Shown here: positions 8,320 to 13,950 of the stretch, in pieces
How the letters are laid out: every line of letters begins with the position of its first letter
How positions within the stretch are numbered: the stretch's first letter is position 1
Assembly (NCBI RefSeq): GCF_016592435.1
Contig: NZ_AP014545.1
Span: 2,178,693-2,242,692 of the forward strand
Length of the DNA stretch: 64,000 nt
Direction: 5' to 3'
DNA from: Amphritea japonica ATCC BAA-1530
Lineage (GTDB): Bacteria; Pseudomonadota; Gammaproteobacteria; Pseudomonadales; Balneatricaceae
Notes under the pieces: model-generated
The model's input: only the letters and a program-made list of their open reading frames with translations
Database searches by the model: none
What the model was told of the DNA's origin: nothing
Position numbers and translations under genes: made by a program

Positions 8320-8628
8320 ATGATCAACGCTAACATCGATTTCAAGAAGCCTTTCGAGTCTGTTCAAACTCTGATGGGCCTGCAAACTGCTGCCATCACT
8401 AAGACTGTTGAACTGCAGAAGCAGGCTGGTGAGCAACTGGCTTCTTTCTTCAAAGCTGAAGCTGGAAAAGCTCAAGAACTTAAATCTCCAGAAGATTTCG
8501 TTAAATTCAACGTTGAATCTAATAAAGCTCTTTTCGAATTGCTGAAGACTCAAGGTGAAGCATTCACTTCTCTGGCTAAAGAGTCTAGCGAAGAAGCGAT
8601 GGCTGAAATCCAGAAAATGGCTAGCTAA
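8320..8628 (+). CDS. Phasin family protein (copy 1)
   Basis: A 102-residue, almost wholly helical amphipathic protein with the phasin pattern: FESVQTLMGLQTAAITKTVE near the N-terminus, then PEDFVKFNVESNKALFELL and GEAFTSLAKESSEEA. Phasins coat polyhydroxyalkanoate granules; small ones of about 100 residues are usual in this group. AGGAG sits 6 bp before the ATG. It has its own promoter and terminator, so it is monocistronic, and is roughly two-thirds identical to the second copy. Confidence 0.9.
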   Translation: MINANIDFKKPFESVQTLMGLQTAAITKTVELQKQAGEQLASFFKAEAGKAQELKSPEDFVKFNVESNKALFELLKTQGEAFTSLAKESSEEAMAEIQKMAS

Positions 8629-8724: not shown

Positions 8725-8801
8725 TTTTGTGCAGTGCACAAAAAAAGTATTTGACTTACCCGCAGAGATGCATACAATAGGCTTCATTGTGCACTGCACC
8801 A
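8725..8801 (+). promoter_or_regulatory. Phasin-2 promoter with the same paired inverted repeats
   Basis: Box 3 core TTGTGC-AGT-GCACAA is at 8727-8741. The -35 is TTGACT (8751-8756), with a 16-bp spacer and -10 TACAAT (8773-8778). Box 4 TTGTGC-ACT-GCACCA is at 8787-8801. The layout matches the phasin-1 promoter: upstream box just before -35, downstream box 8 bp after -10. Both boxes keep the 6-bp arms while the 3-bp spacer changes, as expected for a dimeric repressor site. Confidence 0.78.
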
Positions 8802-8821
8802 TAACTTACTGGAGAAACACC

Positions 8822-9127
8822 ATGACTAACACAATCGATTTTCAAAAGTCTTTCGACTCTGTAAAAACTCTGATGGAAATGCAAGCTGCTGTCATCACTA
8901 AATCTGTTGAACTGCAGAAGCAATCTGGCGAAGAGCTGGCTGCATTCTTCAAGACTGAAGCTGAAAAAGCTAAAGAATTGAAAACTCCTGAAGACGTAGT
9001 TAAGTTCAACGTTGAAGCTAACACTTCTTTGTTCGAACTGTTGAAAGCACAAGGCGAAGCCTTCACTTCTCTGGCTAAAGAGTCTGGTGAAGAAGCTCTG
9101 GCTGAAGTTTCCAAGTTAGCTAAGTAA
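8822..9127 (+). CDS. Phasin family protein (copy 2)
   Basis: A 101-residue paralogue of the preceding phasin, collinear over its full length. Shared segments include the ITK-VELQKQ, PED-VKFNVE and QGEAFTSLAKES stretches. The ATG at 8822 follows TGGAGAAACACC. An open frame continues upstream to 8729 but runs through the operator and promoter, so the shorter start is right. Local duplication with retained regulation suggests dosage selection or division of labour on granules. Confidence 0.9.
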   Translation: MTNTIDFQKSFDSVKTLMEMQAAVITKSVELQKQSGEELAAFFKTEAEKAKELKTPEDVVKFNVEANTSLFELLKAQGEAFTSLAKESGEEALAEVSKLAK

Positions 9128-9413: not shown

Positions 9414-9848
9414 ATGGAACGGTTAACAGCGACACAGATCCCAACGGTAGAACTTGATTTCATGAACCACGATCATGCCGAAGCCAGCCAACAGATAAAT
9501 AGTTTAGACCAGTTGATCAAAGACGGACTAGCTGGCGACTTATCATCGCAAGAAAAAATTGAGCCACTGTTGATAGCGATGTATGAGCACAGTGAAACTC
9601 ATTTTGCCCGTGAAGAGGCTGAGATGATGCGGGTGAATTTCCCAGCGTATGGCTGCCATAGTGGTGAGCACAAACGAGTTCTTGAAGAACTCAGCTCGGT
9701 ACTACAACAATGGCAAGAAAGCGGTGACCTGAATCAATTGGCAGCTTATGTAGATAAAACACTGTGCGACTGGCTGATCAATCATATTTCAACAATGGAT
9801 ACCGTAACAGCGATGTTCGTCGGGCGTTACGACCAATCAGCAGCCTGA
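9414..9848 (+). CDS. Bacteriohemerythrin-type oxygen-binding protein
   Basis: A 144-residue hemerythrin-domain protein with a diiron centre for O2 binding. The ligand pattern is visible in order: NHDH (first His), YEHSETHFAREE (His-x3-His-x3-Glu), CHSGEHKRVL (His-x4-His) and WLINHISTMD (His-x4-Asp). Bacteriohemerythrins serve in O2 sensing, delivery or storage. The gene is monocistronic, and a large dyad and the small-RNA pair follow it. Confidence 0.88.
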   Translation: MERLTATQIPTVELDFMNHDHAEASQQINSLDQLIKDGLAGDLSSQEKIEPLLIAMYEHSETHFAREEAEMMRVNFPAYGCHSGEHKRVLEELSSVLQQWQESGDLNQLAAYVDKTLCDWLINHISTMDTVTAMFVGRYDQSAA

Positions 9849-9882
9849 CCCCTACCAGATACAACCGATCTATCAGACAGGT

Positions 9883-9944
9883 CTATAACACTATAAATTG
9901 ATATACTTAATTAGTAAAAATCAATATAAATCATAGTGTTATAG
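9883..9944. repeat. 62-bp AT-rich dyad
   Basis: A perfect 12-bp inverted repeat CTATAACACTAT (9883-9894) / ATAGTGTTATAG (9933-9944) encloses a second inverted pair, ATTGAT / ATCAAT. It lies 34 bp after the hemerythrin stop and 36 bp before the first small-RNA promoter. It lacks the GC-rich stem and T-tract of a terminator, so a regulatory site or cruciform is possible. The role is unknown. Confidence 0.6.
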
Positions 9945-9980
9945 AAAAGTTAAAAATAATTCAAAAAAAATGAATTTTTC

Positions 9981-10018
9981 CTGAACTTTATCTGAACAAT
10001 CGTCTCTATATATATACA
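9981..10018 (+). promoter_or_regulatory. Predicted activator-dependent promoter of small RNA 1
   Basis: Two TGAAC boxes, 11 bp apart (9982-9986 and 9993-9997), form a CTGAAC direct repeat like the 11-bp repeats bound by OmpR/PhoB-family response regulators. No good -35 is present; a -10-like TATACA sits at 10013-10018. The element recurs 186 bp downstream. The regulator is not identifiable from this window. Confidence 0.5.
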
Positions 10019-10020
10019 TC

Positions 10021-10082
10021 AACGTACTACGCAAGACAGAGAACTGCCCGGTGGCCCCCCTTTCCACCGGGCAGTTTTTTTT
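10021..10082 (+). ncRNA. Predicted small RNA 1 of a tandem pair
   Basis: A short transcript is predicted from just after the -10 element to an intrinsic terminator. The terminator has a perfect 13-bp stem (AACTGCCCGGTGG, 10042-10054, with its complement at 10064-10076), a nine-base loop CCCCCCTTT and a T-tract. No credible ORF with a ribosome-binding site lies between promoter and terminator. The C/U-rich loop could pair with Shine-Dalgarno sequences. The RNA identity is inferred; the structure is seen. Confidence 0.55.
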
Positions 10083-10166
10083 ATTGTAGCCCCATATACC
10101 TCACTAAGAAGCTAACCGCCTCTTATAAGCAACCGCTTCGATTAATGTAATTAAATTATTTTTTTA

Positions 10167-10204
10167 CTGAACTTTTTTTGAACAGTTGTCTCTAAACCAA
10201 TACA
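10167..10204 (+). promoter_or_regulatory. Predicted activator-dependent promoter of small RNA 2
   Basis: This is a second copy of the promoter element, with TGAAC boxes at 10168-10172 and 10179-10183 and the same 11-bp period. The following GTCTCTA and TACATCAACGTACTA segments match copy 1, with -10-like AATACA at 10199-10204. The offset to copy 1 is exactly 186 bp. Confidence 0.5.
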
Positions 10205-10206
10205 TC

Positions 10207-10287
10207 AACGTACTATGTAGGGTCTTTTTAAGGCTTTATGTAAACTACAACTGCCCGGTGGAACCCCTTCCTACCGGGCAGTTTTTT
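10207..10287 (+). ncRNA. Predicted small RNA 2 of a tandem pair
   Basis: It begins with the same 5' segment as small RNA 1, carries about 21 extra bases in the body, and ends in the same hairpin (10249-10261 with 10271-10283) plus a T-tract. One stem position has changed to a G-T pair, so pairing is kept. The loop is AACCCCTTC, again C/U-rich. Conservation of promoter start and hairpin with a diverged body is what a duplicated small-RNA gene would show. Confidence 0.55.
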
Positions 10288-10513
10288 ATTCTGAACAAAG
10301 AAAAGAGCCTACGCCTGCCCCGGGCTTTAGCCCAATATCTGACTTCTGCTACTGGCAGTTTCAACCTCTATAAAGAAATAGCTGGCTTATTCTCTCCATC
10401 TCTAAATCGCATATAGCGGGAACATCCCCCTATTTGATATGCTTGATCCTTACCAGTGCTACTATGTAGCTCACTTCCTGCAACCTCTTTATAAAAGCGA
10501 CCCGCGATCCATC

Positions 10514-11575
10514 ATGAGCAAATTCTGGAGCCCGGCAATCAACCAGCTGACCCCTTACGTTCCGGGAGAGCAGCCCAAAGTTGATAACCTGATCAAGCTA
10601 AATACAAATGAAAACCCTTACCCTCCCTCGCCACAAGTCGAAGAGGCCATTCGTAATTACCCTATTGAACGTTTACGACTCTATTGTGACCCGGACGCAA
10701 CGGCTTTAAAGCAGTCACTGGCAAACCATTTTCAACTTGAGTACAACAACGTCTTTGTGGGTAACGGCTCCGACGAAGTACTGGCGTTAGCCTTTATGGC
10801 TTTTTTCCGCCAGGACCTACCCCTGTTGCTTCCAGAAACAACCTACAGTTTTTACGATGTATATTGCCACCTGTACGATATTGACTACCGACAGATACCT
10901 CTCAATGATAAGTTTGAGATCGACTTTGCTGACTATAACCAGCCAAATGGCGGCATTATCTTTGCAAACCCGAATGCGCCAACCGGGCGCCTGACGACAC
11001 TGGAGCAGATTGAAACTCTGTTACAAAGCAACCGGGACTCACTGGTCATCGTTGATGAAGCTTATATCGATTTTGGTGGTCACTCTGCCGTTGAACTAAC
11101 CCGCACCTACGACAATGTACTGGTTATTCAGACTTTCTCTAAATCCAGAAGTCTGGCGGGTCTGCGAATCGGCTTTGCTTTAGGCCATGAAGATCTTATT
11201 GCCGGTCTCGAACGGGTCAAAAACTCGTTCAACTCCTATCCTCTGGATAGCATCGCTATCATCGGCGCAGTAGCGGCATTAGAAGACAATGACTACTTCG
11301 AAGAAACGACGCAGAAAATTATCGATTGTCGGGAATGGACTACAACACAACTTGAGCAACTGGGCTTTGATGTTGTCCCCTCGAAAACTAACTTTGTATT
11401 CACCCGTCACAGCTCGTTAAGCGGTGCAGAGTTAATGAGTTATCTGCGCAGTAACAATTTGCTGGTACGTCACTTCGGTAAACCCGGTATCGAAAATCAC
11501 CTGCGTATTACTATCGGTACACCAGAGGAGATGAATACTCTGATTGAAACGCTAAAACTACATCCGAAAATCTGA
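10514..11575 (+). CDS. hisC: Histidinol-phosphate aminotransferase
   Basis: A 353-residue fold-type I PLP aminotransferase converting histidinol phosphate and 2-oxoglutarate to imidazole acetol phosphate and Glu (reverse direction in biosynthesis). It has LNTNENPYPPSP at the N-terminus, FANPNAPTGR for substrate/PLP contacts, and the Schiff-base Lys in TFSKSRSLAGLRIG. The frame is open back to 10439, but MSKFWSP at 10514 fits homologues. No ribosome-binding site is strong. It is not in a his operon here, so specificity for a related substrate (aromatic amino acids) is possible. Confidence 0.85.
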   Translation: MSKFWSPAINQLTPYVPGEQPKVDNLIKLNTNENPYPPSPQVEEAIRNYPIERLRLYCDPDATALKQSLANHFQLEYNNVFVGNGSDEVLALAFMAFFRQDLPLLLPETTYSFYDVYCHLYDIDYRQIPLNDKFEIDFADYNQPNGGIIFANPNAPTGRLTTLEQIETLLQSNRDSLVIVDEAYIDFGGHSAVELTRTYDNVLVIQTFSKSRSLAGLRIGFALGHEDLIAGLERVKNSFNSYPLDSIAIIGAVAALEDNDYFEETTQKIIDCREWTTTQLEQLGFDVVPSKTNFVFTRHSSLSGAELMSYLRSNNLLVRHFGKPGIENHLRITIGTPEEMNTLIETLKLHPKI

Positions 11576-13095: not shown

Positions 13096-13950
13096 ATGCG
13101 AGATTTACCAATTGCCTTGTTACGAACCTTTATGGTCGTTGCTGAAACACTTAACCTCACGGTCGCTGCAAACCGGCTTAACAAAGCTCCTTCGACTATC
13201 AGCATGCAGTTAAATCGGCTAGAGGAGCTGGTTGCAAACCCTCTCATGGAAAGGGGACAACACGGTGTTAGATTGACGGCGACGGGGATGCAATTGAAAC
13301 ACCATGCCCAGCAACTGCTTAATTTACATGATCAGATTGTGGGGGCATTTCAGAATATTGATATTGCAGGAAAGGTCCGCCTTGGCACCCATGATCAGTA
13401 TGCAAGCCGGACGCTAACCCCTTTGCTACAGGCATTTATTCTGAGCTATCCCGAAGCGCAACTGGAGGTCCACTGTGATCATCGACCAAACTATCTGACG
13501 GACATGTTGAAAAAAGGCAAGATTGATATCGCCTTGGTAGAGATGCCAGTAACCTCCGAGGGAGGCTTGCGCTTACGGCGTGATGAACTGGTGTGGGTTC
13601 GTGCCAAAGACCATAGCGTCCACCAGCAGGCCGTTCTGCCATTAGCTGTTTTCGACGAGGGGTGTTACCACAGAAACTATGCCCTTGAAGCATTAGAGTT
13701 ATCAGCCAGGCCTTATCGTATCGCTTTCACCAGTCAGAGCCGGGCAGGTGTTCTAGCGGCGGTAAGGGCCGGGATTGGTGTTGCCATCATTCCACTCCAT
13801 ACCCTTGAGGAAGATCTGATTACGATAGACAAGGAGCTCCCCTCGCTAGCTGAGACAGAGGTCACACTGTTTACCGCACCAAACGTAAATGAAGCCACCC
13901 TGAGACTGGCGCAAACAATTCAAGACAGTCCGTTATTTGGCGATAGCTGA
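13096..13950 (+). CDS. LysR family transcriptional regulator
   Basis: A 284-residue regulator. Its N-terminal winged helix-turn-helix is at residues about 5-62 (LRTFMVVAETLNLTVAANRL, then APSTISMQLNRLEE), followed by a periplasmic-binding-protein-like effector domain. The DQYA and CYHRN segments resemble the LrhA/HexA-like branch. It probably controls the divergent MFS gene. The effector is unknown. Confidence 0.88.
   Translation: MRDLPIALLRTFMVVAETLNLTVAANRLNKAPSTISMQLNRLEELVANPLMERGQHGVRLTATGMQLKHHAQQLLNLHDQIVGAFQNIDIAGKVRLGTHDQYASRTLTPLLQAFILSYPEAQLEVHCDHRPNYLTDMLKKGKIDIALVEMPVTSEGGLRLRRDELVWVRAKDHSVHQQAVLPLAVFDEGCYHRNYALEALELSARPYRIAFTSQSRAGVLAAVRAGIGVAIIPLHTLEEDLITIDKELPSLAETEVTLFTAPNVNEATLRLAQTIQDSPLFGDS

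Follow-up and report, generated by a model that had tools for sequence, protein, structure and literature searches.

Predicted twin sigma-E-type small RNAs of Amphritea and a porin mRNA as their candidate target

Several families of bacterial small RNAs (sRNAs) combine some of the traits considered here. RybB and MicA are described as sigma-E-dependent sRNAs that repress outer-membrane protein mRNAs in Enterobacteria (PMC1804206), and OmrA and OmrB of E. coli as tandem siblings with outer-membrane targets under EnvZ/OmpR control (PMC4211561). LhrC1-5 of Listeria are multicopy RNAs induced by envelope stress, and a C/U-rich motif in their terminator loop helps to bind a target (PMC4132741). In Vibrio, the sigma-E-dependent RNA VrrA pairs with the 5' part of the ompA mRNA and reduces the level of the porin OmpA. 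MicV is likewise a Vibrio sigma-E sRNA.

We describe a locus of Amphritea that carries two similar promoter-terminator units. Our preferred reading of its sequence, to which we give a probability of roughly two in three, is that it encodes twin sigma-E-dependent base-pairing sRNAs that would repress a porin of the Porin_4 family. No paper naming Amphritea together with a small RNA was found in the open library searched, and Rfam gave no match at gathering score in the window (the whole 64-kb stretch of DNA that was analysed). Rfam 15 holds models of RybB, MicA and OmrA-B; they were absent among the 13 Rfam matches at E <=10 in positions 9950-10310.

The twin units and their distribution in Amphritea

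A direct-repeat analysis of the window brought out two repeat families. The copies of the first (9957-10029 and 10143-10215) are 77% identical and 186 bp apart from start to start; the second is formed by the terminators (10042-10080 and 10249-10287), 90% identical at a spacing of 207. In each of the two tandem units, a promoter precedes a predicted transcript that is short and closes with a strong terminator hairpin, and the site lies upstream of hisC. The features are as follows.

9414-9848, plus strand: upstream flanking gene, hemerythrin HHE-domain protein of 144 aa
9983-10009, plus strand: sigma-E-type promoter of unit 1 (-35 GAACTT at 9983-9988, 16-nt spacer, -10 TCTAT at 10005-10009)
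10015-10082, plus strand: predicted small RNA 1, about 68 nt, with a start site inferred from sequence
10016-10029, plus strand: unpaired 5' seed of unit 1, ACATCAACGTACTA, which contains ACATCAAC
10042-10082, plus strand: terminator 1 (13-bp stem 10042-10054/10064-10076, loop CCCCCCTTT at 10055-10063, T-run 10075-10082)
10169-10195, plus strand: sigma-E-type promoter of unit 2 (-35 GAACTT at 10169-10174, 16-nt spacer, -10 TCTAA at 10191-10195)
10201-10287, plus strand: predicted small RNA 2, which forms an additional hairpin in its body and measures about 87 nt
10202-10215, plus strand: 5' seed of unit 2, ACATCAACGTACTA
10249-10287, plus strand: terminator 2 (13-bp stem with one G-U pair, loop AACCCCTTC at 10262-10270, T-run 10282-10287)
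10514-11575, plus strand: downstream flanking gene, class I/II aminotransferase, hisC-like (named by resemblance)

This anatomy agrees with the original prediction, which had seen a tandem pair at a distance of 186 bp with duplicated promoters and terminator hairpins, a common start segment, two C/U-rich loops, a 13-bp stem and a G-T pair in the second stem. The 5' segment common to both units is TACATCAACGTACTA (15 nt), and both RNAs would begin with TACATCAAC. If the count starts at TACATC and stops with the last T of the run, unit 1 measures 68 nt and unit 2 87 nt, the difference being due to the extra internal hairpin of unit 2; the insertion that forms this hairpin (10212-10248) was seen among 24 units only here and in unit 2 of one other genome (G012).

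Those 24 units come from 15 of 17 Amphritea genomes. The locus is a tandem pair in nine of them (the source genome G000, G006, G007, G009, G010, G011, G012, G015 and G016) and a single unit in six, either typical (G005 and G008) or of a diverged form in which the hairpin differs and the T-run is short (G001, G002, G003 and G013). It was not found in G004, an assembly of 490 contigs, or in G014, which is 75% complete. With the whole pair as query, BLASTN matched 13 of 57 genomes including the source genome, all of one genus, and none of 40 genomes of other genera. Unit 1 alone matched 15 of the 17 genomes of the genus, the four diverged ones weakly (E 0.04-0.9); two of these four loci reached E < 0.001 with the longer whole-pair query.

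We also searched with a covariance model, a check that had been suggested along with the prediction: homologues were found in 15 Amphritea genomes, four of them weakly (E 0.007-0.05), among 17 matching genomes out of 116 of the family, in a search that scored 34 candidates per genome and may therefore have missed some. Two matches were set aside, L064 as an ordinary terminator and L066 as a different sigma-E-like unit. The latter (G122:C72:76332-76446) lies in another genus downstream of a polA-like gene, so called by resemblance, and shows the sigma-E-like promoter GAACTT-N16-TCAAA ahead of a hairpin whose loop is TTCCCC and of a T-run; it is possibly an unrelated sigma-E sRNA. In a collection with one genome per species (84,980 species), the exact promoter-plus-seed pattern occurred in 14 stretches. 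Twelve of them, on 11 contigs, belong to Amphritea or to Oceanospirillales/Oceanospirillaceae records, A. pacifica having two matches 163 bp apart, and the single matches in Massilia and Methanolinea were taken as chance.

The predicted RNA folds are far more stable than those of shuffled sequences, at -28.6 kcal/mol for unit 1 (z = -6.5) and -35.5 kcal/mol for unit 2 (z = -5.7), with 0/200 shuffles as good in each case. The first 22 nt at the 5' end of unit 1 are unpaired in the predicted fold, and ACATCAAC is present in 24/24 units. Base pairing in the 13-bp stem reaches 96.2% across the 20 typical units, three stem pairs have changed on both sides (a number reached by 3/500 shuffles), and the stem covariation score was reached by 0/500 shuffles, which ignore relatedness. 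The loop CCCCTT is invariant in these 20 units and the T-run counts at least six in all of them; such an invariant loop and a kept 5' seed go beyond a terminator's needs. The diverged units (L012, L013, L032 and L033) close with a long hairpin and a longest run of only 3-4 T, and their termination may differ. Among the sequence features of Hfq-class sRNAs we found an hfq gene in the source genome, an intrinsic terminator with at least six U in the 20 typical units and a free 5' seed. The conservation of promoter and hairpin within the genus bears out the view that these are twin, apparently co-regulated small RNAs.

Two other explanations start from the place and repetition of the hairpins. 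The hisC-like gene stands downstream on the same strand in 15/15 genomes with the locus, a steadier neighbour than the HHE hemerythrin-domain gene found upstream in 7/15 (1.5 kb of flank examined), and this constancy leaves some room for a link to hisC. That the units are a leader or attenuator of this gene is nonetheless very improbable: a strong terminator of its own closes every one of the 20 typical units, the distance from unit 2 to hisC exceeds 200 nt in the window, 21/24 units are devoid of any start-codon ORF of at least 5 codons (the other three have 6-7 codons), and the kept seed and loop exceed what a terminator would need. A mobile or REP-like repeat would also give near-identical hairpins in tandem, a reading to which we attach almost no weight, as it is already contradicted by the kept place before hisC and by the source genome itself, a single 3.83-Mb contig in which the pair matches nowhere else.

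Two further observations concern the region upstream of the units. An A/T-rich inverted repeat with 18-nt arms, 89% complementary, lies between the hemerythrin-domain gene and unit 1 (window 9882-9945), and a tandem pair of similar small proteins with no Pfam match is encoded at 8320-8628 and 8729-9127; these proteins resemble phasins.

The promoters and their probable regulator

The promoter pattern kept across units was TGAACTT–N16–TCTA[A/T]–N6–ACATCAAC. GAACTT and TCTA[A/T] were found in 24/24 units, with a spacer of 16 nt in 23/24 and of 15 nt in one, and the gap between the -10 and ACATCAAC was fixed at 6 nt; the unit finder loosely required a promoter-like motif, but it retained every one of the 24 matches that BLAST had given at this site. 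In the 64 kb of the window, GAACTT-N15..17-TCTAW occurred twice, both times at this locus, for 0.22 expected, and 0/100 shuffles reached two. The unit promoters agree with the published sigma-E elements (-35 GGAACTTTT, -10 GTCAAA; PMC1804206) at the right spacing before the RNA. The source genome encodes rpoE (TIGR02939, 321 bits, over the cut-off), and a promoter of the same type, GGAACTT-N16-TCATA, lies about 150 nt upstream of the rpoE start codon.

The original prediction had instead attributed control to an OmpR/PhoB-type regulator, from a CTGAAC direct repeat with 11-bp spacing said to be shared by both units. The second repeat reads CTGAAC in unit 1 but TTGAAC in unit 2. Over the 24 units, the second repeat is an exact TGAAC in only 10, its positions holding 0.5-1.2 bits each versus 2.0 for the -35. 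Such partial conservation, together with the fact that the closest anatomical parallel, OmrA/OmrB, is EnvZ/OmpR-controlled (PMC4211561), is what speaks for a response regulator acting at the 11-bp repeat. We consider this control improbable, since the second half-site is inexact in 14/24 units while the sigma-E-type elements are kept throughout, and since the double repeat TGAACTT/TGAAC, allowing two mismatches at most, showed no enrichment in the window (four found for 5.9 expected), its sole two exact occurrences being these two units. A simple scan of the window listed no sigma-70 promoter on this strand; the same scan also missed both terminators because their loops exceed its loop limit of 8. 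Membership in an OmpR/PhoB direct-repeat regulon was rejected, the second of the paired half-sites 11 bp apart being exact in only 10/24 units. The predicted promoter fits sigma-E (RpoE) better than an OmpR/PhoB box, and the second repeat is not the defining promoter element. Given its partial conservation, a second factor may act there.

A porin leader as candidate target

Since sigma-E sRNAs act on outer-membrane proteins, we examined Porin_4 genes. The porin was therefore picked from prior expectation and not via a genome-wide scan: Porin_4 genes were collected across the genus and their start regions were read. The candidate target is a Porin_4-family porin (MKKS[IL]IALAVAG...) whose leader, about 90 nt long, follows a TTGAAA-like/TATAGT promoter, as judged by eye. 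In the source genome, this leader matches the sRNAs at three points: GUUGAUG at -74 is the complement of the 5' CAUCAAC, UAGUACGUU at -31 is the complement of AACGUACUA, adjacent to CAUCAAC, and the Shine-Dalgarno (SD) sequence GAAGGGG is the complement of the terminator-loop CCCCUUC.

G000:C1:2519372-2519396, minus strand: leader core ACTAGTAYGTTRAATATTGAAGGGG of the source genome

As a background we used 246 start regions from 284 kb of the source genome (ORFs of at least 100 aa, from our own ORF calling). A 9-mer complementary to the 15-nt seed was found in 3/246, two separate 7-mer sites in 1/246 and the SD GAAGGGG in 2/246, and the porin alone belonged to all three groups. Its best accessible single seed site ranked 4/246 in energy. 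Without accessibility, the porin ranked 8/247 for the seed, 26/247 for the loop and 9/247 for the sum, and 129/5000 permuted seeds paired with it as well as the real seed. The suggestion that the loops could pair with ribosome-binding sites holds for the complementarity to the porin SD, but pairing energy of the loop against start regions placed the porin only 26th and was discarded as a target criterion of its own for lack of discrimination.

GUUGAUG was present in 0/12 start regions of OmpA-domain and TonB-receptor genes, which leaves a broad outer-membrane regulon unsupported, and we saw none by eye in about 75 nt of start region of other porin types. The 10-mer ACGTTGATGT was rejected as a target motif: among the matches listed (20 regions, 50 loci) it mostly corresponded to coding words like NVDV. 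The start region of a minus-strand ORF of 483 aa (near position 13177 of the reverse complement), which resembles malate:quinone oxidoreductase, contains the 9-mer GTTGATGTA, which matches the sRNA seed, possibly by chance within coding sequence.

The porin leader was found in 15/17 Amphritea genomes. GUUGAUG occurred within the examined stretch in 14/15 of these leaders and further upstream in the fifteenth (G007), because of an insertion. In 10/15, G007 included, it lies in the loop of a 5' leader hairpin, GCGU-AGUUGAUG-ACGC, which in one species becomes GCGC-AGUUGAUG-GCGC, a compensatory change of the stem noted by eye. In the five leaders without the loop site, GUUGAUG spans the start codon at -4 and overlaps the coding sequence; both sites together were seen in 0/15. 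In other genera, GUUGAUG was present in 4/35 leaders read (37 matches found), always at the start codon, and the hairpin-loop site in 0/35 against 10/15 in Amphritea, a comparison of one clade with others for which a Fisher p overstates the contrast.

The other contacts varied more. The clade whose SD reads AAAGGGG has CCCCUUU in the sRNA, the others having CCCCUUC except for unit 1 of the source genome, which has CCCCUUU; the CCCCUUU/AAAGGGG pair counts as one compensatory event, and the motif belongs to the linker instead of the loop in the clade concerned. Full-length pairing of UAGUACGUU was found only with AACGUACUA units (G000, G006, G010 and G012) and is incomplete in many species. For 21/23 unit-leader pairs, permuted seeds reached the observed hybrid energy in 0-11% of trials. 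The two units of G007 failed this test (137/400 and 249/400), their GUUGAUG lying outside the tested stretch.

The leader itself is more widespread than the sRNAs. Its core ACTAGTAYGTTRAATATTGAAGGGG, with at most three mismatches, was found in 51/116 family genomes and 8/16 genera, and UAGUAYGUU…GAAGGGG is kept outside Amphritea in 36/99 family genomes and 7/15 genera. No homologous sRNA was recognised in those seven genera by the covariance search, with 34 candidates scored per genome. We had predicted that sRNAs with a UCAAC seed would be found there behind a sigma-E promoter, and the pattern search, which covered 47 of 49 genomes of the seven genera (G076 and G109 were left out), returned nine matches, none convincingly sRNA-like by eye. 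This failed prediction counts against recognisable siblings in other genera. UAGUAYGUU and GAAGGGG are thus not kept through this sRNA alone, and the corresponding contacts might match by coincidence a leader that is conserved on other grounds; since these motifs persist in genera in which no such sRNA was recognised, it is mainly GUUGAUG that carries the target claim. The leader core may be a family-wide regulatory RNA element.

It follows that the twin sigma-E sRNAs could be real while the porin is not their target, or not the main one, the leader being kept for ribosome binding, mRNA stability or another regulator. The occurrence of the leader element in genera without a detectable sRNA homologue favours this possibility, as do single-site energies that are good without being unique. 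We nevertheless consider it unlikely, in view of a hairpin-loop GUUGAUG confined to Amphritea, the presence of GUUGAUG at one position or the other in 15/15 Amphritea leaders and its absence from the OmpA-domain, TonB-receptor and other porin start regions inspected.

Proposed function and comparison with known systems

According to our preferred reading, regulation of the porin by sigma-E sRNAs, the locus would produce two sibling trans-acting sRNAs of about 65-90 nt, each from its own sigma-E promoter and ended by its own intrinsic terminator. Envelope stress would free sigma-E and both RNAs would be made. The free 5' CAUCAAC would pair with GUUGAUG of the porin leader, in the hairpin loop in most species and at the start codon in others, while UAGUACGUU near -31 could be bound by the neighbouring AACGUACUA, and the SD GAAGGGG by CCCCUUC/U of the terminator loop. 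Translation would thereby be blocked, the porin would fall and the load on outer-membrane assembly would be relieved. The conserved units, promoters, terminators, complementarity and phylogenetic pattern are read from sequence; we infer transcription, sigma-E dependence in vivo, use of Hfq, the sign of regulation, the joint contacts and the porin being major.

A more ambitious version, which we put forward as tentative and on the whole doubtful, joins these elements. The twins would hold the porin mRNA at two or three points, the 5' seed sitting on the hairpin loop at its 5' end while the terminator loop covers the SD, the seed site would have shifted between leader hairpin and start codon during evolution, and the family-wide leader would serve as a landing pad for fast-evolving sRNAs, mostly not yet recognised.

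If the sRNA reading is true, the envelope-stress response of a marine genus includes an sRNA arm peculiar to it, to which no Rfam family corresponds. It would also offer a natural case of sibling sRNAs with a predicted binding site that shifted while the RNA seed stayed fixed, and the presence of the porin leader in Amphritea and seven other genera raises the question of its reader elsewhere.

The original prediction had likened the pair to PrrF or Qrr. This analogy is weaker than those with OmrA/OmrB for the anatomy and with RybB/MicA for the control and the target class. The Amphritea RNAs resemble OmrA/OmrB as adjacent twins with a common 5' end and 3' terminator, a differing middle, an outer-membrane target (predicted in Amphritea) and a single copy in some relatives; they differ from them by a promoter of sigma-E type rather than EnvZ/OmpR control, and by having no Rfam match. 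With RybB/MicA they share the sigma-E promoter, a length of about 70-90 nt and the terminator hairpin, and the mRNA that they are predicted to bind likewise encodes an outer-membrane protein. Unlike these, they are tandem twins without Rfam match, their terminator loop is predicted to act on the SD, and they have so far been found only in Amphritea.

The likeness to LhrC1-5 lies in the multiple copies, the induction by envelope stress and the C/U-rich terminator-loop motif, induction and target binding being predicted in Amphritea; LisRK control, a Gram-positive host and another anatomy set LhrC1-5 apart, with sequences compared through the Rfam search only. VrrA has in common with the Amphritea RNAs the sigma-E dependence and the pairing at the 5' region of a porin mRNA, both predicted here. 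VrrA and MicV are not known to be tandem twins, unlike the Amphritea pair, and their sequences were likewise compared with it only through Rfam. The Amphritea RNAs are a new predicted sRNA of a known control type, which combines its features in an unusual way and has to date been seen in this genus alone.
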